From contig JAIQFE010000038.1 in the NCBI GenBank assembly GCA_020073445.1, positions 1 to 64,000 on the forward strand: DNA of 64,000 nt, written 5' to 3'. The notes beneath the pieces are model-generated. The model had not been told where the DNA came from, did no database searches, and saw only the letters and a list, made by a program, of their open reading frames with translations. The position numbers and the translations under genes were made by a program. Origin of the DNA: Terriglobia bacterium (GTDB lineage: Bacteria > Acidobacteriota > Terriglobia > Bryobacterales > Bryobacteraceae). How positions within the stretch are numbered: the first letter of the stretch is position 1; every line of letters starts with the position of its first letter. This document shows positions 50,642 through 63,270 of this stretch, piece after piece.

Positions 50642-51879
50642 CTACGGAATGGGTTCGATTCTAAGCAGCGCGCCCGCGTCTTCGTCCGTCAAAAGATACA
50701 GCAAACCGTCCGGGCCCTGGCGAACTTCGCGAATTCTCTGGTGCAGTTCGGTGAGCATCGTTTCGCGGCGAAGCTCTTCGGTCTTGTCATTGAACACGAT
50801 CCGCTCCAGATGTCCCGTTCCGGGGATTTCGCCCGTGCGCATGCTGCCGACGAAAACGTTGTTCTTCCACGCAGGGAAGCGATCGCCCGTGTAGACCGCC
50901 ATGCCGGCCACCGCGATCGACGGCACCCAGAACACGAGTGGCTGTTCGATGCCTTCGCGCCACGGCACTTCCGAAACCCGTGGACCCTCGTACGTGCGGC
51001 CATAGCTCGCCACCGGCCAGCCGTAGTTCTTGCCCGGCAGGATGATGTTGATTTCATCGCCGCCATTCGGACCGTTTTCGTTATTCCACAGGGCTCCCGT
51101 CACCGGATGCACCATCAGCCCCAGCGTATTGCGATGCCCCATGGAATAGATCTCAGGTCTATATCCGGCGCGCCCCCCATGGAATAGATCTCAGGTCTAT
51201 ATCCGGCGCGCCCCACGAAGGGATTGTCCTGGGGAACTGTGCCGTCGTCGCGCAGCCGCATGATCTTTCCGCGATGACTCTTGGGATCTTGCGAAGAGTC
51301 GCTATTCGAAGCGCCGTTCGACACATAGATCATGCCATCGCGCCCGAATGCCATGCGCGAGTTGTACCCGTTTGCGTCCTCCGGCAGCCAATCGGCCACG
51401 AAGATATCCCGAACCTCCGTCAGCGCGCCGTTCTCCAGGCGTCCCCGCGCCAGCGCCGTCGCGATCGTCTTATTCGGCCCCGGCTTGTTGTAAGTAAGAT
51501 AGACCAGCTTGTTCTCGGCGAACTTGGGATGCAGCGCCACATCCATCAGTCCCGAGTTCCCGATCAGCCGCACCGCGGGCACTCCCGTGACCGGCTTCGG
51601 GTCGAGCTTGGCGTCCCGCGTCACATCATGGATAACTCGCAGCCGCCCCGGACGCTCCGTCACCAGCATGCTGCCGTCCGGCAGAAACACCAGGCTCCAC
51701 GGATGTTCCAGACCCTTGGCGACCACCGACACCCGGATCTTGTGCTGCTCGGCCGTGTCGAAGACAAATGGTCCGTTTCCCAGCGGAGCCACCGGCACGC
51801 CTATCGGCTGCTGAGCAACGGCCCCTGCCATCGCGGCCACCAAACCAAGGAAACAGTTTCTTAGCACGACGTCACGCAT
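50642..51879 (-). pseudogene. PQQ-type aldose sugar dehydrogenase, broken by a 38-bp tandem duplication
   Basis: The N-terminal part (from ATG 51879) has a signal peptide, then VVAKGLEHPWSLVFLPDGSM, ERPGRLRVI, NSGLMDVALHPKFAENKLVY and GRAGYRPEIYSMG. The C-terminal part continues in another frame with HRNTLGLMVHPVTGALWNNE, GPNGGDEINIILPGKNYGWP and GIEQPLVFWVPSIA. Together they make a complete YliI/Asd-like beta-propeller. The break is a duplicated 38-bp block (51137-51214); removing one copy joins YSMG directly to HRNTLGL. It is annotated as one broken gene spanning both frames. TACTTT ends 6 nt before the ATG. Confidence 0.85.
51137..51214. repeat. 38-bp tandem duplication
   Basis: Positions 51137-51176 match 51175-51214 exactly at an offset of 38 bp. 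Each unit contains the small inverted repeat ATAGA/TCTAT, which could promote slippage. The duplication is not a multiple of three and disrupts the sugar dehydrogenase frame. Confidence 0.95.
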
Positions 51880-51935: not shown

Positions 51936-54773
51936 TCAAGCGCCGCTCAGAGCCGGGCTTTTCGAACTCTCCAGCGTCTGTTCGATCGCCGTTAGCAAGG
52001 CGTCGGCGGCGATCGGTTTCGACACGTACCCATCCATCCCGGCGGACAGGCAGCGCTCCCGATCGCCTTCCATCGCGTGGGCCGTCATCGCGATGATCGG
52101 TACGTGGGCCCCGGTCCGCCTTTCGTGTTCGCGGATCTCCTGAGTTGCCTCGAATCCATCCATGTCCGGCATTTGCACGTCCATCAGCACCACGTCGAAG
52201 CTCTGTTTCTCCAGCGCCTCGATCGCCCCGCGGCCCGACACGGCAGTGACCACCGAGTGTCCCTGTTTCTCCAGTAAGCGAGTAGCCAGCCGCCGATTCA
52301 CTTCGTTATCGTCCACCACCAGGATGTGCAAACCGGCTTGAGCTTCGCGCACTGGGTGGGAATGGGCCAGAAACGGTATGGTTTCGCGATCAGGTTGCCC
52401 GCGGAATGCTCGCAGGAGCGCGTCCAGCAGGTCCGCGTCGCCAACGGGCTTCGTCAAGTATCCGGAAACGCCCAATCCCCGGCATCGCGCGGCGTCCCCT
52501 GGAAAGCCTCCCGACGTCAAAACGATCACGGCGCACGAAGCGAGCCGGGGATCCTGTTTGATGCTCTCGACCAAAGTGAAACCGTCCATTTCCGGCATGT
52601 GAGCGTCGGCCACCACCAGTGGATAAGGATCGCCGTCCCGCGCGGCTTGTCGCAGCGAAGTCAGCGCCTGCGAGCCGGAGGCCGCCAAGGTCGCGCGCAC
52701 CCCATAAGATCGCAAAGTCTGTCCGAGGATACGGCGATTCGTGGCATTGTCGTCTACCGCCAGAACCCGCAGATTCCGCAGCGTGGCGAGGTCACCTTTA
52801 GTCGGTTCGCGGCGAAGTTCTTCGCCCGGCTTCAAGTACGCCGTAAACGAAAACTCACTGCCTTTCCCTGGCTGACTCTTCAGCTCCAGCGTTCCTCCCA
52901 TCAGAGCGATCAGGCGCGAGGAGATCGTGAGCCCCAGCCCCGTGCCGCCGAATCGTCTCGAGATCGAGGTGTCGGCCTGCGTAAAAGCCTCGAAGATCAA
53001 CTTTTGTTTTTCAGGCGCAATGCCGATTCCGGTATCCCGAACTTTGAAATTCAGACCCACCAGCTCTTTTGACGCGGACTGTGCGTCTACTTGCACCATG
53101 ACCTCGCCATGCTCGGTGAACTTAAGAGCATTGCCGACAAGATTGACCAGTACCTGGCGAAGACGTCCAGGGTCGCCTATGACGTTGTCAGGCACCCCGG
53201 ACGCCACGGCGTAGATCAGTTCCAGGTTCCTTTCGGCCGCGCGCGTTTCCATGGCCTTCATGGTTGCGGCGATAGTCGCCCTCAAGCTGAAAGGGACACT
53301 CTCCAGTTTCAGCTTGCGAGCCTCGATCTTGGAAAAGTCCAGGATGTCGTTAAGGATGCCCAAGAGGGACTGGGCGGAAGACTGCACAATGGTGAGCGAT
53401 TCCCTTTGGTCGGGAGTCAGCTCGGTGTCGAGCACCACATCCGTCATCCCGATCACGCCATTCATGGGCGTCCGGATCTCATGGCTCATGTTCGCCAGAA
53501 ATTCGCTTTTCGCCTGACTGGCTGCCTCCGCTGCTTCCTTCGCCTTTTTCCACTCTTCCTCGGCGCGCTTCCTGTCCGAGATGTTGACCAGAATACCTTC
53601 CACCATCGGCCTGCCGCCATTCTCGTTTTCGTCTTCAATCAAACAGACGTTCGCAAGGACCCATATCGGGTGGCCATCCCTGTGACGTAGCCTCAGCTCA
53701 TGATTGGAACCGGCAGTCTTGGACTTCAGGCCTTGCAGGAAGGCTTGCCGCTCTTCGGCATCGAAATAGAAATCCGAAGCCCGCAGACCCAGCGCGCGAA
53801 CTTCGTCTATGGACGTATAGCCCATGAATTGAGCCAGGGCTCGGTTGCAATCGAGGATCTCGCCATCCCAGGAAGTTCGCAGAACTCCCGCCAAGTTCTG
53901 ATCGAACAGGCGGCGGTATCGTTTCTCGGAATCCCGCAGAGCTTCTTCGGCCTGTTTGCGCGCCGTGATATCGGAAGCCGTGCCGACGATATAGCGCTTG
54001 CCGTCTTTCTCATAGCTGCTCATCGCCCTAGCATCGAACCAAACCCACGCGCCATCCTTGCGCTGGATCCGGTATTCGGTACTGAAGAATTTCCCTTCGG
54101 TGAGCGCGGCGGTGAACTGTGCCCGTACTCTTGGCGCGTCTTCCGGGTGAATCCGGCTATACCAGACGCCCGATTCATAGATTTCTTGCGGCGTATATCC
54201 GTAGAATGTCTCGATGTTGGGAGTGATGAATACGCATTGCCCGTTCGGATCCGCCGTCCAGACGACATCGGGAATGTGGTCCACCAGCAGGCGATACCGT
54301 TCTTCGCTCTCGCGAATCGCCTGCTCCTGGCGCTTGCGTTCAGTCACGTCCTGCTTGATCGCGATGTAGCGGGAGATCATGCCGGCCGCATCCAGAACCG
54401 GCGTGATCGTCATCTCCTCCGCATAGCAAGTCCCGTCCTTGCGCTGGTTGACCAGCTCTCCGTGCCAATTCTTGCCGGAGGAGATCGTCGCCCACAAATC
54501 CCGGTAGAACTCCGGGTTCTGTTTGCCGGACTTGAGGAGCCGCGGGTTCTGCCCGACGGCTTCTTCGGCGCTATAGCCGGTCATTCGCGTAAACGCCGGG
54601 TTTACGTATTGGATTCGGCCCTCGCTGTCGGCGATGATAACGCCTTCTGCGGCCTGCGCCATCGCGGCATTCAGGCCCGACTGTTCCCCGTCTGCGTCCT
54701 GCGGTGCGGGAGCAGGGACCGGAACGGGAGGCCGGACCTCTGGGCGCGTCTCCGGGTTGACCATGGCTTCCAT
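51936..54773 (-). CDS. Hybrid sensor histidine kinase with three PAS and two receiver domains
   Basis: This 945-aa cytoplasmic protein has no membrane span. Three PAS/PAC units (about 35-150, 165-280 and 290-410; TERKRQEQAIRESEERYRLL and similar linkers) precede the kinase core: H-box EFLANMSHEIRTPMNGVIGM, N-box VNLVGNALKFTEHG, G-boxes DTGIGIAPE and FGGTGLGLTI. Two receivers follow: the first has Asp in VVADAHMPEMDG, the second in VVLMDVQMPDMDG. It resembles BarA-type multi-input kinases without an Hpt domain. AAGGAGG lies only 2 nt before ATG 54773, so ATG 54764 is an alternative start. Confidence 0.92.
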   Translation of the reverse strand: MEAMVNPETRPEVRPPVPVPAPAPQDADGEQSGLNAAMAQAAEGVIIADSEGRIQYVNPAFTRMTGYSAEEAVGQNPRLLKSGKQNPEFYRDLWATISSGKNWHGELVNQRKDGTCYAEEMTITPVLDAAGMISRYIAIKQDVTERKRQEQAIRESEERYRLLVDHIPDVVWTADPNGQCVFITPNIETFYGYTPQEIYESGVWYSRIHPEDAPRVRAQFTAALTEGKFFSTEYRIQRKDGAWVWFDARAMSSYEKDGKRYIVGTASDITARKQAEEALRDSEKRYRRLFDQNLAGVLRTSWDGEILDCNRALAQFMGYTSIDEVRALGLRASDFYFDAEERQAFLQGLKSKTAGSNHELRLRHRDGHPIWVLANVCLIEDENENGGRPMVEGILVNISDRKRAEEEWKKAKEAAEAASQAKSEFLANMSHEIRTPMNGVIGMTDVVLDTELTPDQRESLTIVQSSAQSLLGILNDILDFSKIEARKLKLESVPFSLRATIAATMKAMETRAAERNLELIYAVASGVPDNVIGDPGRLRQVLVNLVGNALKFTEHGEVMVQVDAQSASKELVGLNFKVRDTGIGIAPEKQKLIFEAFTQADTSISRRFGGTGLGLTISSRLIALMGGTLELKSQPGKGSEFSFTAYLKPGEELRREPTKGDLATLRNLRVLAVDDNATNRRILGQTLRSYGVRATLAASGSQALTSLRQAARDGDPYPLVVADAHMPEMDGFTLVESIKQDPRLASCAVIVLTSGGFPGDAARCRGLGVSGYLTKPVGDADLLDALLRAFRGQPDRETIPFLAHSHPVREAQAGLHILVVDDNEVNRRLATRLLEKQGHSVVTAVSGRGAIEALEKQSFDVVLMDVQMPDMDGFEATQEIREHERRTGAHVPIIAMTAHAMEGDRERCLSAGMDGYVSKPIAADALLTAIEQTLESSKSPALSGA

Positions 54774-55000: not shown

Positions 55001-57319
55001 CTATTTCTTCTTGGCAGCCTTTTTCGCGGGTGCCTTCTTCTTCGCAGTGGCTTTCTTCTTCGCGGGAGCCTTCTTCTTCACCGTCGAAGCGCCGTTCGTC
55101 GAAGTCCCCTTCAAAACCGGTCCGATCTGGGCCAGGGTGAATGACTCCAGAAAACTCGGCTTGATGTACAGGCTTTTGAGCGCACTCGGCTTGATTGCTC
55201 CCGTTGCTGCCATTTTCGCGGTGCCGCCGCCCTCAGCCCAAGCGCTGTCCCACAGCATCGATAGCGTACGGGCCCCTGCGGCCATTACTTTCACCGTGTC
55301 GTCGCCGAACTCGTCCCAAAGATTCTGGGCGACGTCCTTGGGCTTTAGTTTCCGGATCGGAACGAACGCGTCCACGATCTTCTTGGGTTGGATATCGTCA
55401 AACGTTTGCTGCATCAGCCCGACCACGGCCTTGGCGGCTCCGAATCCGTGACCCTTGTTCAGAGCCAGGCCGTGCGTCTTCCCGTCAAACTCCTTTTGCA
55501 ACCTGGCGAGAATCTCGGGCGTGTGGAAATTGACCAGGCCGTCCTCATACGCGCTGTGAACGCCTTTCGCGACGGGCTGTTCCACGCTCTTCGTCACGCC
55601 CGTTTTCTTGTTGGTCACTTGCACCGTTTCGGTATCCGCGGGATCGCCGTTGAACATGTAGGAAATGTGCAGCGGTTGGCAGGCATCGCCGACATAGTGC
55701 GAAAGGATGCCGGCCGTGCAGACGAAACGTTTGGCGTCGCCTTTTCCGGCCGCATCCACCATCTCGTCGTAGATTTGCCAGCAGCGAAATGGCAACAGCC
55801 CCTTGCTGCCGTCCTTGACCTTGGGATCGTTGTAGTACGTCATCCAAACCGTGGGGTCGATATTCTTGGCCGATTTTTCGCATAGCTCCAACAATGTGGT
55901 GTTGTTGCTGTCTTTCTTGTCCATGTCGGCGAAGTGATTGGAGTGCTCGGGACTCGTCATCCCTCCGCGCTTATTCGGGCCGACCTTCCATACCATGTCC
56001 GGAACATCCGCCAGCGGGACGAAATTCTTGGTGCTCAATCCCTTCATGTTCCCGGCGTTGATCTGGCCTAGGGGAAACGTAATGGAGTTGAGGTTCGCCA
56101 TCATCAGCGACTTGAGCTGGGCGTCCTTAACGATTTCGCAGGCTTTCTCCGCGATCGTGTAGTGGCCGACCGCTCCCCAATACTCCGGATGGCCGATGTT
56201 CCAGTCTTGGACGTAGTCGATGTTCAAGATCCGGCAGACCGTGCTCAGGCTGGTGGCCAGGGCATACGGCTGGCCTTCCTGCGTGCCGCCCCCGGTCATG
56301 AGAACCTGACCGCCCCACTGCACGGCCAGAGGCTTGGGTCCCTCGCCAGGTTTATCCGGCGGCATCAGCCACAGCGTGCCGGAATCGCCACGGTGCGTCT
56401 CGAACGGCTTGTCTCCGTCGGGTGCGATGAGAAAATCGGCGACGTACTCCGAGCCGCTGACCGACTGGTACCGGTAGAACATGCCGAGAATCCGGCCATT
56501 CATAGGACCGCTGGCGCAGCCGTAAGCCTGCAAGGGTGTGTCCAGCAGCCGCAAGGAGATGTTATCCGTACTGAGGTCCACCAGAGAGCCCGTGGTGCCG
56601 ATGCCATAGATCTGCGCGGTCCAGCGCGTGGCGTCGTCCACCTCGATCAGGCCGATATCCATGTGCACGAACACGCCTTTGCCCGGCCAGCCGGGATAGG
56701 CCCGCTCAAAAGGCATTCGAGTGATCTGTTTGGAGGAACTTCTCCCGATGGGTACCTTCTCGCCACCCAGAACCGAATAGACCACTTCGCCGGTTTCGCC
56801 GGTCACGTGGCGGTTCGTCAGTGCGTAGACCAGATGCCCGTCCGTGACCATTCCGCCAATCGAAGCGATATGCTCCTCGCCCTGAACGTCGGCGATCACC
56901 GGATACCCGCCGCCAATCCAGTTGCCGGGGAACTTCGGATTCACCGCCTCCGCCGGTCCACTAAGTTGCGGCGGCGCTTCCACCACGCACAGAGGAATTA
57001 CCCGGCCATCCGACATTTCAATCAGGGGCGGGATGAAGTGGGCGGCGTCGATCCCATGCCCGAATTGTCCCTTGGGCACCCATTGGCTGACGAACACCAG
57101 GATGCAGGGCCACGAATAGGTCTTTACTTCGGAATTGCCGAGCGTCTTTTTCTCGTCTTTCTTGTGCTTCTCCTTGCGCACCAGGTAGCGGCCCAAAGCG
57201 GTGCCGACTACGTTGTCTTTGCGCATGAGCTGGCGATGATAAAAGTCGCGCGCATCCACTAAATCGCGGAACGAAAGCGTGCTGAACTGCTTATAGGGAT
57301 CGCTCTGCTGGATGGGCAT
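55001..57319 (-). CDS. Trypsin-like protease fused to S1/P1 nuclease-phospholipase C domain, Lys-rich tail
   Basis: This 772-aa protein has no signal peptide or membrane span. Residues about 130-370 form a trypsin-like domain with the triad His171 (ALTNRHVTG), Asp221 (HMDIGLIEVDD) and Ser313 (THRGDSGTLW). From Trp381 an S1/P1 nuclease/zinc-PLC domain begins: WGAVGH (Trp381, His386), NHFADMD (His462), SHYVGDACQPLH (His541, Asp545, His551) and HSAYE (His588, Glu592), reproducing the three-zinc ligand spacing. The C-terminal 25 residues are Lys/Ala/Pro repeats like histone H1. In known members the Trp must be N-terminal to bind zinc, so cleavage before Trp381 is predicted. The start is ATG 57319 with AGGAGA upstream. 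It is a stand-alone gene. Confidence 0.82.
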   Translation of the reverse strand: MPIQQSDPYKQFSTLSFRDLVDARDFYHRQLMRKDNVVGTALGRYLVRKEKHKKDEKKTLGNSEVKTYSWPCILVFVSQWVPKGQFGHGIDAAHFIPPLIEMSDGRVIPLCVVEAPPQLSGPAEAVNPKFPGNWIGGGYPVIADVQGEEHIASIGGMVTDGHLVYALTNRHVTGETGEVVYSVLGGEKVPIGRSSSKQITRMPFERAYPGWPGKGVFVHMDIGLIEVDDATRWTAQIYGIGTTGSLVDLSTDNISLRLLDTPLQAYGCASGPMNGRILGMFYRYQSVSGSEYVADFLIAPDGDKPFETHRGDSGTLWLMPPDKPGEGPKPLAVQWGGQVLMTGGGTQEGQPYALATSLSTVCRILNIDYVQDWNIGHPEYWGAVGHYTIAEKACEIVKDAQLKSLMMANLNSITFPLGQINAGNMKGLSTKNFVPLADVPDMVWKVGPNKRGGMTSPEHSNHFADMDKKDSNNTTLLELCEKSAKNIDPTVWMTYYNDPKVKDGSKGLLPFRCWQIYDEMVDAAGKGDAKRFVCTAGILSHYVGDACQPLHISYMFNGDPADTETVQVTNKKTGVTKSVEQPVAKGVHSAYEDGLVNFHTPEILARLQKEFDGKTHGLALNKGHGFGAAKAVVGLMQQTFDDIQPKKIVDAFVPIRKLKPKDVAQNLWDEFGDDTVKVMAAGARTLSMLWDSAWAEGGGTAKMAATGAIKPSALKSLYIKPSFLESFTLAQIGPVLKGTSTNGASTVKKKAPAKKKATAKKKAPAKKAAKKK

Positions 57320-57541: not shown

Positions 57542-57628
57542 GCGGATATGGCGGAATTGGCAGACGCGCTAGATTCAGGTTCTAGTTCTCGCAAGGGAGT
57601 GGAGGTTCAAGTCCTCTTATCCGCACCA
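57542..57628 (+). tRNA. tRNA-Leu (anticodon CAG)
   Basis: This 87-nt class II tRNA includes CCA (57626-57628). The acceptor stem is GCGGATA/TATCCGC. The anticodon stem CTAGA/TCTAG frames the loop TTCAGGT with anticodon CAG, decoding CUG. The TΨC arm is GAGGTTCAAGTCCTC and a long variable arm is present as expected for leucine. Encoding of CCA in the gene is complete. Confidence 0.96.
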
Positions 57629-60245: not shown

Positions 60246-61624
60246 TGTTTGTCACCAAGAAGCACATCTCCCGCCGGACCATTCTTCGCGGAGCGGGCGT
60301 CACCCTCGCCCTTCCCCTGCTCGATTCGATGATCCCGGCCCAAACGCCGCTGGGTAAGACCGCCGCGAACCCCAAGACTCGCTTCACCGGCATCTTCGTC
60401 CCGCACGGCATGGGTCCCGGATGGTGGGTCCCTGAGGGCGGCGGCCCCGGCGAGCCCAAGCGCGCGAATCCCGGCGATCCATTTGCGTACCCCATGATCA
60501 TGAAGCCGCTCGAGCCCCTTCGCGATCAAGTGGTCATCATGAGCGGGCTGTGGTCGAAATCGGCCGAGCCGCCTCCCGGAGTCACCGGAGCCGATCACTG
60601 GGTCGCGGCCGCGTACCTGTGCGGCAACAAGCCCAAGAAAACCACCGGCGCCGATATTTACGATGGCGTCACCATCGATCAGCTCATCGCGCAGAAAGTC
60701 GGCCAGGAGACGCTGCTGCCTTCGCTCGAACTCGGAGTCGAAGACGCCGGCGCCAACTCCAGCAACTGCGGCGAAGGCTATAGCTGCGCCTACACCAACT
60801 CGATCTCCTGGCAGTCTCCTTCACAGCCCAATCCGATGGAGATCAACCCTCAGGTGGTCTTCGAGCGCCTCTTCGGCGATGGCAGCACTCCTGCCGAGCG
60901 CGCCGCGCGCCGCAACAAGGACCGCAGCATTCTCGATTCGGTGACGCAGAGTCTCGCGCGATTCAAGCGCGATATCGATCCCGGCGACCGCAGTCGTCTG
61001 GACCAATATTTGGAGGATGTGAGAGAGATCGAGCGGCGTCTGCAAGTCGCGACGAAAGCGTCGGCCGAAGTCTCGACCGACGGCATCGTGGTCCCCACCG
61101 GCGTTCCGCAGTCGTTTGATGAACACATCAAGCTGCAGTTCGACCTGCAATTGCTGGCGTTCCGCGGCGATATCACGCGCGTAACCACGCTGCTCTACGC
61201 CCGCGATCTAACCTCGCGCAGTTATCCCGAAAGCGGCGTGCGCGGCGCGTTCCACGGGCTCTCGCACCATGCCGAAGATCCCGCCACCATTGCCGATTAC
61301 GCCAAGCTGAACCAGTATCACGTGCAGTGCCTGGCGTACTATCTCGACAAGCTCAAGAAGACTCCCGACGGCGACGGCAGCCTGCTGGATCATTCGCTGG
61401 TCCTGTATGGCAGCAACATGGGCAACTCCAACCAGCATCTGCATTACGACGTGCCGCATCTGCTGGCCGGCGGCGCATCCGGCCAACTCAAGGGCAACCG
61501 GCATCTGGCGTTCCCCACCAAGACGGTCACCACCGGCAACATGCTCCTAAGCATCTTGAATATGTTCGGAGTGCAGCAGGACAGCATCGGCGATAGCACC
61601 GGCTACCTGACAGGATTGGTCTAA
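60245..61624 (+). CDS. DUF1552 domain protein with Tat-like signal
   Basis: This 459-aa protein begins with a twin-arginine-type signal (HISRRTILRGAGVTLALPLL), so it is probably folded in the cytoplasm and exported. The body (FVPHGMGPGWWVPEGG, VIMSGLWSKSAEPPPGVTG, DHWVAAAYL, SLVLYGSNMGNSNQHLHYD) is standard DUF1552. It is the constant partner of DUF1592 proteins and overlaps it as TGATG. The biochemical role is unknown; an alkaline-phosphatase/sulfatase-like fold has been suggested for related DUF1501 and DUF1552 proteins. Its stop overlaps the ankyrin gene start. Confidence 0.92.
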   Translation: MFVTKKHISRRTILRGAGVTLALPLLDSMIPAQTPLGKTAANPKTRFTGIFVPHGMGPGWWVPEGGGPGEPKRANPGDPFAYPMIMKPLEPLRDQVVIMSGLWSKSAEPPPGVTGADHWVAAAYLCGNKPKKTTGADIYDGVTIDQLIAQKVGQETLLPSLELGVEDAGANSSNCGEGYSCAYTNSISWQSPSQPNPMEINPQVVFERLFGDGSTPAERAARRNKDRSILDSVTQSLARFKRDIDPGDRSRLDQYLEDVREIERRLQVATKASAEVSTDGIVVPTGVPQSFDEHIKLQFDLQLLAFRGDITRVTTLLYARDLTSRSYPESGVRGAFHGLSHHAEDPATIADYAKLNQYHVQCLAYYLDKLKKTPDGDGSLLDHSLVLYGSNMGNSNQHLHYDVPHLLAGGASGQLKGNRHLAFPTKTVTTGNMLLSILNMFGVQQDSIGDSTGYLTGLV

Positions 61625-63270
61625 TGAACATGACTGAAACACGCCTCGGTTTCGTTGGGTTCGTTTTGTTCTGCAGCGTTTCCGCCTGGGCGGCTGCTCC
61701 CAGTCCCGTCGCCGATGCGGCCATGAAGCGGGACCAGGCCGCCGTGCGGGCTCTGTTGTCTAAGAAATCCGACGTCAACGCTCCTCAGCCCGATGGCGCA
61801 ACCGCCCTGCAATGGGCCGTTTACAACAATGATCCGGCCATGGCCGACCTCCTGATCGGCGCCGGAGCGAACGTCAAGGCGGCCAACCACGACGGCGCGA
61901 CGCCTCTCTTCCTCGCCTGCGAAAGCGGCAACGCCGTGATGATCGAGAAGTTACTGAAAGCCGGCGCCGACGCGAACGAAGTTGGTCCCGTCGGCGACAC
62001 GCCTCTGATGATGGCATCGCGCACCGGTAAAGTGGACGCCGTGAAGGTACTTCTCGACCACAAAGCCGATGTCAACGCCAAAGAGCAAGTCCGCGGAACC
62101 ACCGCGCTGATGTGGGCTGTGGAGCAGCAGCATCCCGCGGTTGTGAAAATGCTTGTGGAACACGGCGCCGATGTCGCCGCGACCACTACTTCCGCCAAGG
62201 TATCGACGACGGCTTATCTTGCTCCACAAGTCCGGTTGCGAACCACTCCCGCCGGAGCGCCCTCCGCGGGCCGTCCTGCCGGCGGAGGAGGCCGGGCAGG
62301 TGCCGGACGTCCGCCTGGGATCACGGCGGAACAACAAGCTGCGGCCGACGCCGGCACGTTCTTCAGCGGTCCTAACAACGATAAAGGCGGCGCCCTGACG
62401 CCTCTGGTTTTCGCTGCCCGGGAAAACTGTCTGGAGTGCGCGAAGATCCTGCTCGACGCCCACGCCGACATCAATCAGACCACCAAGTACGGCTGGTCTC
62501 CGCTGCTCACCGCGACCCAGAACCGGCACTATCAGCTCGGGTCGTTCCTGCTGGACCACGGGGCCAAACCCAACATCTCGAATAACGGCGGCTGGTCGCC
62601 TCTCTACATCGCGACCGATAATCGCAATATCGAAGGTGGCGATTATCCCGTCCGCACGCCGGACATGGACCACCTCGAGTTCATCAAGCGCCTGATCGAC
62701 CATGGGGCCGACGTCAACATCCGCGTCTGCGGAACTTCATCGACGGCCACGGAGTGCCATGGCGACAGCACCGAGACGCGCACCAACTTCACCATGCAGT
62801 GGCTCTACGAGGAAGGTGCGACGCCGTTCCTGCGCGCCGCGCAATCGGGCGACGTCGAGCTGATGAAGCTGCTGCTGGCGCATGGCGCCGATCCCAAGAT
62901 CGCCACCGCGCACAACGTGACTCCGCTGGCTGTCGCTGCGGGCATCGGCTGGGTGGAGGGCGTAACGTACGAATGGTCTGCGAAGGAAAGCGTTGAAGCT
63001 GTGAAGATGCTGCTCGATCTCGGCCTCGATCCCAACGCCACGAGCGACGAAGGCCGCGCTCCTCTGCATGGCGCGGCGCACAAGGGCCGCGATGAGGTTG
63101 TCCAGATGTTAGTGGACCACGGCGCCAAGCTCGATCAGCTTGATTTCGGCAGCCGCGATACCGGCAATGGCGACATGCTTGGCCACCGCTGGATCCCGCT
63201 CAACTACGCCGAGGGTCTGGTCCGCGTGGGTGTACAGTCGGCATCCCTCATCCCGAAACCGCTGAGCTGA
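61624..63270 (+). CDS. Exported ankyrin-repeat protein, C-terminus frameshifted
   Basis: This 548-aa protein has a signal peptide (about residues 1-22) and about ten ankyrin repeats (DGATALQWAVYNNDPAMADL, DGATPLFLACESGNAVMIEK, GDTPLMMASRTGKVDAVKVL and later EGRAPLHGAAHKGRDEVVQM). A Gly/Pro/Arg-rich insert lies near 205-240. It is the third gene of the DUF1592/DUF1552 operon (ATGA overlap). After VRVGVQS the present frame stops at 63270. One missing G near 63240 would continue it as GIPHPETAELMRRLMREHGL and on to TAA 63360-63362. So either a one-base deletion or a sequencing error has removed about 40 residues. Confidence 0.9.
   Translation: MNMTETRLGFVGFVLFCSVSAWAAAPSPVADAAMKRDQAAVRALLSKKSDVNAPQPDGATALQWAVYNNDPAMADLLIGAGANVKAANHDGATPLFLACESGNAVMIEKLLKAGADANEVGPVGDTPLMMASRTGKVDAVKVLLDHKADVNAKEQVRGTTALMWAVEQQHPAVVKMLVEHGADVAATTTSAKVSTTAYLAPQVRLRTTPAGAPSAGRPAGGGGRAGAGRPPGITAEQQAAADAGTFFSGPNNDKGGALTPLVFAARENCLECAKILLDAHADINQTTKYGWSPLLTATQNRHYQLGSFLLDHGAKPNISNNGGWSPLYIATDNRNIEGGDYPVRTPDMDHLEFIKRLIDHGADVNIRVCGTSSTATECHGDSTETRTNFTMQWLYEEGATPFLRAAQSGDVELMKLLLAHGADPKIATAHNVTPLAVAAGIGWVEGVTYEWSAKESVEAVKMLLDLGLDPNATSDEGRAPLHGAAHKGRDEVVQMLVDHGAKLDQLDFGSRDTGNGDMLGHRWIPLNYAEGLVRVGVQSASLIPKPLS

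Follow-up and report, generated by a model that had tools for sequence, protein, structure and literature searches.

Why should a bacterium join a serine protease to a zinc hydrolase, and bury inside the chain a tryptophan whose counterpart is the first residue of the mature enzyme in relatives of this hydrolase? The question is raised by a gene (P0001; 55001..57319, reverse strand) in a 64,000-nucleotide stretch of acidobacterial DNA, referred to here as the window (G000:C89:1-64000, from a source genome of 6.58 Mb in 102 contigs). Translation of its open reading frame, supported by homologues, gives a protein of 772 amino acids. We propose that this protein may be a single-chain proenzyme, in which a NARROW LEAF 1 (NAL1)-type serine protease (residues 1-366) would form a large pro-region ahead of a three-zinc enzyme of the S1/P1-nuclease/phospholipase C (PC-PLC) superfamily. 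As long as the chain is whole, the amino group of Trp381 would not be free, the site for the third zinc would be malformed and the hydrolase would stay latent; cleavage ahead of Trp381 would create the canonical N-terminal Trp and activate the enzyme. The fused protease itself would be the most parsimonious choice of cutter, acting in cis or between the subunits of an oligomer after some trigger. The product would most likely break down intracellular nucleic acid, which would make the protein an effector of stress or defence complete in itself. We hold this explanation as a whole to have about an even chance of being right.

Results

The earlier note, made from the letters of the window, had described a trypsin-like protease fused to an S1/P1 nuclease/PLC domain. 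Profile matches to Nal1_C and NAL1, the predicted fold and the set of ligand positions bear this out, and we regard the fusion of these two families as practically certain. A chance arrangement or an artefact of gene prediction was ruled out, since 18 distinct loci found in the genome contigs encode relatives of both halves. Conservation was followed in an alignment of 24 fusion sequences, many of them closely related, of which 14 were treated as distinct; two broken plasmid copies were excluded.

The protease domain covers residues 131-366 (56222..56929, reverse strand, as are all features of the gene) and matches the Pfam family Nal1_C with 39.9 bits (cut-off 26.1, E 3.5e-10). Among the six fusion proteins scanned with Pfam, only L003 scored below this cut-off (20.3). 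A profile built from 12 fusion-family members (A4) was run against PDB sequences, and the nine top entries were all NAL1, a plant regulatory protein (best E 1.1e-17). NAL1 aligned over profile positions 80-351, including the motifs round His171 (TNRHV) and Ser313 (GDSG); two fimbrial entries in the same search (E 2e-4 and 0.02) were put down to chance. The catalytic triad of His171 (56807..56809), Asp221 (56657..56659) and Ser313 (56381..56383), reported as intact before, is unchanged in 24/24 fusions. Residues 1-130 (56930..57319, boundary set by eye) form a module whose probable relative is the N-terminal region of NAL1, as the family start aligns with the NAL1 start over profile positions 14-49, a separate weak stretch of 2.1 bits only. 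In the window genome the fusion is the sole Nal1_C match; in a sample from the window's phylum, 14 of 199 genomes gave matches. Among the 16 matches listed, 14 lie within open frames of 231-432 amino acids, not long enough to hold the fusion, and the protease module thus exists on its own as well. Four such proteins of stand-alone size were inspected (L059, L061, L064, L067). One of them, at L067:1423-2532 (-), is a NAL1-like protease without a hydrolase half, whose N-terminal stretch resembles, by eye, the N-terminal module of the fusion.

The second half of the protein, residues 381-733 (55121..56179), is predicted to adopt the helical fold of the S1/P1-PLC superfamily, like the S1/P1 nuclease SmNuc1 (8qjl). 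Its first residue, Trp381 (56177..56179), had been assigned to the position at which mature S1/P1 enzymes and PC-PLC begin, and the profile alignment agrees: profile position 1 falls on residue 1 of Endonuclease 2 (4cxo, 3w52) and likewise on residue 1 of 8qjl. The WGAVGH start, His462, His541-x3-Asp545-x5-His551 and His588-x3-Glu592 are present at the residue numbers given before, and we add H386, the His of WGxxGH, and D441. The fusion domain thereby shows the metal-ligand positions in the order W1, H, D, H, H, D, H, H, D/E; the list of nine ligands and their assignment to metals follow P1 numbering, by which W381 and H386 would bind one and the same metal. D438 was considered for the first Asp ligand and rejected, since Asn takes its place in L027, whereas D441 is invariant. 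Trp381 and the remaining eight positions expected to bind zinc (H386, D441, H462, H541, D545, H551, H588 and E592; 55544..56164) are unchanged in 24/24 fusions and belong to the 16 invariant columns of an alignment of 12 fused and six other domains (18/18). The earlier observation is thus right, and stronger than it was stated.

Which of the two activities of this superfamily should be expected? The hydrolase could be a phospholipase C directed against the cell's own membrane, with the proenzyme explanation otherwise unchanged. The glutamate at the last ligand position is not decisive here, since the six other aligned domains have it as well. In the PDB profile search, S1/P1 nucleases were found with E 5e-9 and PC-PLC with E 0.28, and S1-P1_nuclease (PF02265) outranks Zn_dep_PLPC in all six fusion proteins scanned with Pfam; the score of the window protein for the latter family (PF00882, bacterial PC-PLC) is 16.7 bits, short of the cut-off of 26.8. 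By sequence, the domain is thus probably a nuclease, and the explanation by a phospholipase C directed against the cell's membrane appears distinctly improbable.

Members of the S1-P1_nuclease family are typically secreted and carry a signal peptide. Nine relatives of the hydrolase half without a protease domain were fetched from the window's phylum (L028-L036, L030 being the beginning of a longer frame). In 9/9, WGxxxH follows directly, by eye, on a short hydrophobic, signal-peptide-like start, and signal peptidase would make their Trp N-terminal. The fusion has the protease domain in place of this start, and W381 is retained in 24/24 sequences. The earlier note had seen no signal peptide in the window protein; by eye, none can be made out there or in its relatives. 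What the residues ahead of the Trp could mean is suggested by PC-PLC of Listeria monocytogenes. This enzyme is made as an inactive proenzyme and processed by the protease Mpl; every substitution of W1 except W1F lowered its activity, and a single extra residue ahead of W1 switches it off (PMC10576769). Because this relative is off when residues precede W1, the uncut fusion is likely to be latent as well.

Relatives of both halves at the 18 loci share 38-52% identity with the window protein in the best segment; the match of L016 reaches residue 652 only. By title the loci span Planctomycetota, Bacteroidota and Pseudomonadota, and ten of them belong to Bradyrhizobium. In the window's phylum, full-length matches were found in three of 297 sampled genomes and any match in 74, of which 71 are partial and S1/P1-like; the gene was not found in two sampled genomes of the window's own genus (G187, G289). 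Three further samples were searched with an E-value limit of 1e-20. Within the phylum of the Chitinophagaceae genome G303, 2/296 genomes have a full-length match, G303 itself counted; in the class of Sphingomonas (1/289) and the phylum of the planctomycete (1/199), the only match is the genome round which the sample was drawn. Four plasmids carry the fusion gene, and both halves were found in these same four records and nowhere else in the plasmid collection. Two of them hold the excluded copies, which are split over several frames and apparently broken (L022:8001-10261 and L024:8001-10315, on Neorhizobium and Sinorhizobium plasmids). A phage origin is unsupported: there were no matches in the phage collection, and no relatives among 17 candidate stretches of viral contigs. 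A tree of 16 sequences, with two long branches and two open forks, intermixes phyla and scatters the alphaproteobacterial members over separate places; the planctomycete protein is closest to the window protein (56% identity). Taken together, the gene has probably spread in a patchy, horizontal manner. Purifying selection acts on both halves in Bradyrhizobium, with nonsynonymous divergence (dN) of 0.010-0.032 and synonymous divergence (dS) of 0.200-0.381 in the 10 pairs of five sequences. The C-terminal Lys/Ala/Pro tail (residues 734-772; 55004..55120), which had been considered DNA-binding, is present in the window protein, with 15 K/R and no D/E in the last 38 residues. Many members do without it (missing from L005, L009, L012, L013, L015, L019, L023, L026 and L027), and it was rejected as a defining part of the family.

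Gene neighbours were viewed in four genome regions (L054 being one without the fusion), on four plasmids and, by eye, at 14 other loci; Pfam was run on 19 neighbour proteins from 10 loci and PADLOC on nine from three loci. In G026 (L055:7948-12047), the fusion gene is followed after an 18-base gap by a Trypco1 gene (PF19493, E 3.7e-15) and, 29 bases further on the same strand, by a gene encoding a subtilase (E 6.3e-23; PADLOC 'subtilase' E 2.5e-9), a run that looks like a conflict-system operon. Trypco1 owes its name to its co-occurrence with trypsin-like peptidases in conflict systems of bacteria (PMC7159879); none of the 13 neighbour proteins scanned at nine other loci is a Trypco1 protein. 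A constant partner gene was ruled out, as in the loci viewed the neighbours differ between genera, while the Bradyrhizobium loci share theirs. The neighbour check proposed earlier thus yielded one suggestive locus, but no partner common across genera.

The PADLOC model 'trypsin-like' (PDLC03017) matches the window protein (E 2.1e-34) and all 16 fusion members scanned; each half matches it separately (64.3 and 46.6 bits), whereas four of four protease-free relatives of the hydrolase half do not. Both parts of the trypsin-ATPase-like protein L051 match as well. Since its C-terminal part is matched by S1/P1-type domains as well as by the second part of L051, the model appears to be built from a mixed set, which makes a match to it less conclusive for a role in defence. 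Together with the Trypco1 and subtilase neighbours in G026, the PDLC03017 matches modestly suggest a role in conflict. The L051 frame itself (L051:1420-3528, within L054) is a proteobacterial trypsin-like frame with, by eye, an ATPase-like second part. It gave the best PDLC03017 match in one search and lies near a frame with a TIR-like start, also judged by eye (L054 14963-15994, -). G286, a genome with a complete fusion, has in addition a gene for an EAD1-trypsin protein (L043:1357-2610, -; EAD1 E 1.9e-10, Trypsin_2 E 2e-22) of a type known as a conflict-system component.

Around the window gene, nine flanking genes were scanned with Pfam and PADLOC. Pfam identified HDOD, PEP-CTERM, a split sugar dehydrogenase, a hybrid sensor kinase, DUF1592/DUF1552 and ankyrin proteins. 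The sensor kinase (51936-54773) and the DUF1592/DUF1552 pair lie beside the fusion gene, and a tRNA-Leu gene (cag; 57542-57628, +) lies about 220 bases from its start. The glucose/sorbosone dehydrogenase-like gene (50642-51879, -) is split over two overlapping frames, of which 51115-51879 covers profile positions 1-179 and 50642-51142 positions 178-332. PADLOC gave weak matches of receiver domains to SduA, PDC-M60B and PD-T4-6, and matches of ankyrin repeats to PDC-M72A (E 6.5e-57), Ankyrin (E 1.5e-27) and MzaA; the PDC-M72A match is the ankyrin-repeat protein at 61624-63270 (+), probably through its repeats. We take these matches to reflect repeats and domains that the proteins have in common with the models, rather than a defence system.

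Discussion

How well does the proenzyme explanation stand up? The idea of latency is well founded, and that of self-activation is moderately supported; as to the agent, we lean slightly towards the protein's own protease as the one that would free Trp381. Several observations weigh against this explanation. The linker (residues 367-380; 56180..56221), with the putative cut before Trp381, has an entropy of 1.56 bits in the 14 distinct sequences, compared to a protein-wide mean of 1.55. The two residues preceding Trp381 are EY in 18 fusions (window, planctomycete, Sphingobium, Bradyrhizobium, Sphingomonas, Burkholderia, L026 and L027), YT in four (the Bacteroidota loci), YS in one (L050) and DT in one (an Ensifer plasmid). 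With such variable pairs and average entropy, the linker contains no strict or conserved motif for cleavage, an argument against a specific self-cut; a cut in cis would demand less recognition. The predicted structure, proposed earlier as a check on whether the Trp and the ligands come together, matches in fold, but residues 36-81 of the domain model, D441 included, are poorly predicted. With 19.6 bits, the window protein falls short of the PF02265 cut-off (29.5), as do four of the five other fusions scanned (L003, L009, L013 and L026; L027 exceeds it with 32.1 bits). The window protein is thus to be regarded as a distant relative of PF02265 and not as a curated member. The nine scanned window neighbours include no Trypco1, no conflict-system set and no recognisable defence set. 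Finally, a warning comes from LypC of the CARD-NLR-like system LypABC, a trypsin-endonuclease fusion in which lysis needs the peptidase but not the nuclease residues (PMC13236601): a fused nuclease need not be the effector.

The motif-free linker bears on two other explanations. The latent hydrolase might be cut by a different protease, either a housekeeping or a partner enzyme, with the NAL1-type domain serving as pro-region, oligomerising scaffold or regulator. Here Listeria offers a precedent, as Mpl is a separate protease (PMC10576769), and the subtilase encoded after the fusion and Trypco1 genes in G026 could be such a second enzyme. However, this neighbour was seen at one locus only, and a fused triad intact in 24/24 sequences is probably used for something, so that we consider a foreign cutter unlikely. 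Alternatively, there may be no proteolysis at all: an uncut bifunctional enzyme could direct its protease at proteins of the cell or of phages, with an altered third metal site and Trp381 retained for packing. The varying residues before Trp381, the average conservation of the linker and the similar selection on both halves speak for this explanation. It is at odds with the joint invariance of W381 and H386 and with the loss of Listeria PC-PLC activity on addition of a residue before W1 (PMC10576769), and appears quite unlikely to us.

Returning to the proenzyme, what might it be good for? A role in defence or suicide is a tentative suggestion at present. The boldest form of it is a one-gene suicide effector, in which self-cleavage would make the very amino group that completes the metal site of the nuclease, spread horizontally as a defence module across Planctomycetota, Bacteroidota, Pseudomonadota and Acidobacteriota, the phylum of the window; this full combination we regard as doubtful. 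The fusion family is nevertheless a concrete candidate for a different nuclease under a chemically explicit switch within a single chain, the new N-terminal Trp acting as metal ligand. It would allow bacterial zymogen logic to be tested on just one protein, and it presents bacterial relatives of the plant protease NAL1 in a setting where the substrate may be known beforehand.

The earlier note knew of no described system with this layout. We likewise found no publication on this fusion in the literature searched, with thin coverage of subscription papers and bioRxiv preprints; however, the PADLOC model PDLC03017 is matched and close mechanistic analogues are published. One of these is the pair of PC-PLC and Mpl in L. 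monocytogenes, which shares the superfamily, the inactive proenzyme and the N-terminal Trp freed by a protease, but is a secreted phospholipase with a 26-residue propeptide and a separately encoded protease (PMC10576769). Each half of the fusion also has a counterpart of its own. Plant NAL1 resembles the protease half in its triad motifs and probably also in the N-terminal module, whereas the matched NAL1 chains show no S1/P1 match in the alignment. SmNuc1 (8qjl) and L028-L036 have WGxxxH at a signal-peptide-like start with no protease domain in front; SmNuc1 has the same fold as the hydrolase domain by model comparison, and the six of L028-L036 that were aligned have all nine ligand positions.

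Two groups of bacterial systems come close in logic. Trypsin-NucA endonuclease systems, some with subtilisin domains, have been described and a proteolytic cascade proposed for them (PMC7159879). Like LypC (PMC13236601), they combine a trypsin-like peptidase and an endonuclease in one protein, but their endonuclease belongs to the NucA/Dns type, they involve no chemistry of an N-terminal Trp and LypABC has NLR-like partners; no NucA/HNH endonuclease domain, as in System 3 of PMC7159879, was found in the window protein with Pfam up to E 10. Protease-gated metallo-beta-lactamase (MBL)-type pro-nucleases are known from Hachiman, AVAST, Lamassu, DRT and canu (Tuck et al., PMC12799240), in the main text of which the terms P1 nuclease, phospholipase and NARROW LEAF do not occur. 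These nucleases are likewise inactive until a trypsin-like protease (or a caspase) cuts them, but they are encoded by a separate gene, the trypsin-like protease being fused to a defence enzyme, and two inserted loops form the gate. In the window fusion, the nuclease would be of the S1/P1 type and part of the same chain, and the N-terminus itself would be the gate. The family, which has neither an MBL nuclease nor a NucA domain, would thus share the activation principle of these systems and realise it with a new chemistry: if the explanation is true, the cut would build an active site rather than open a gate.
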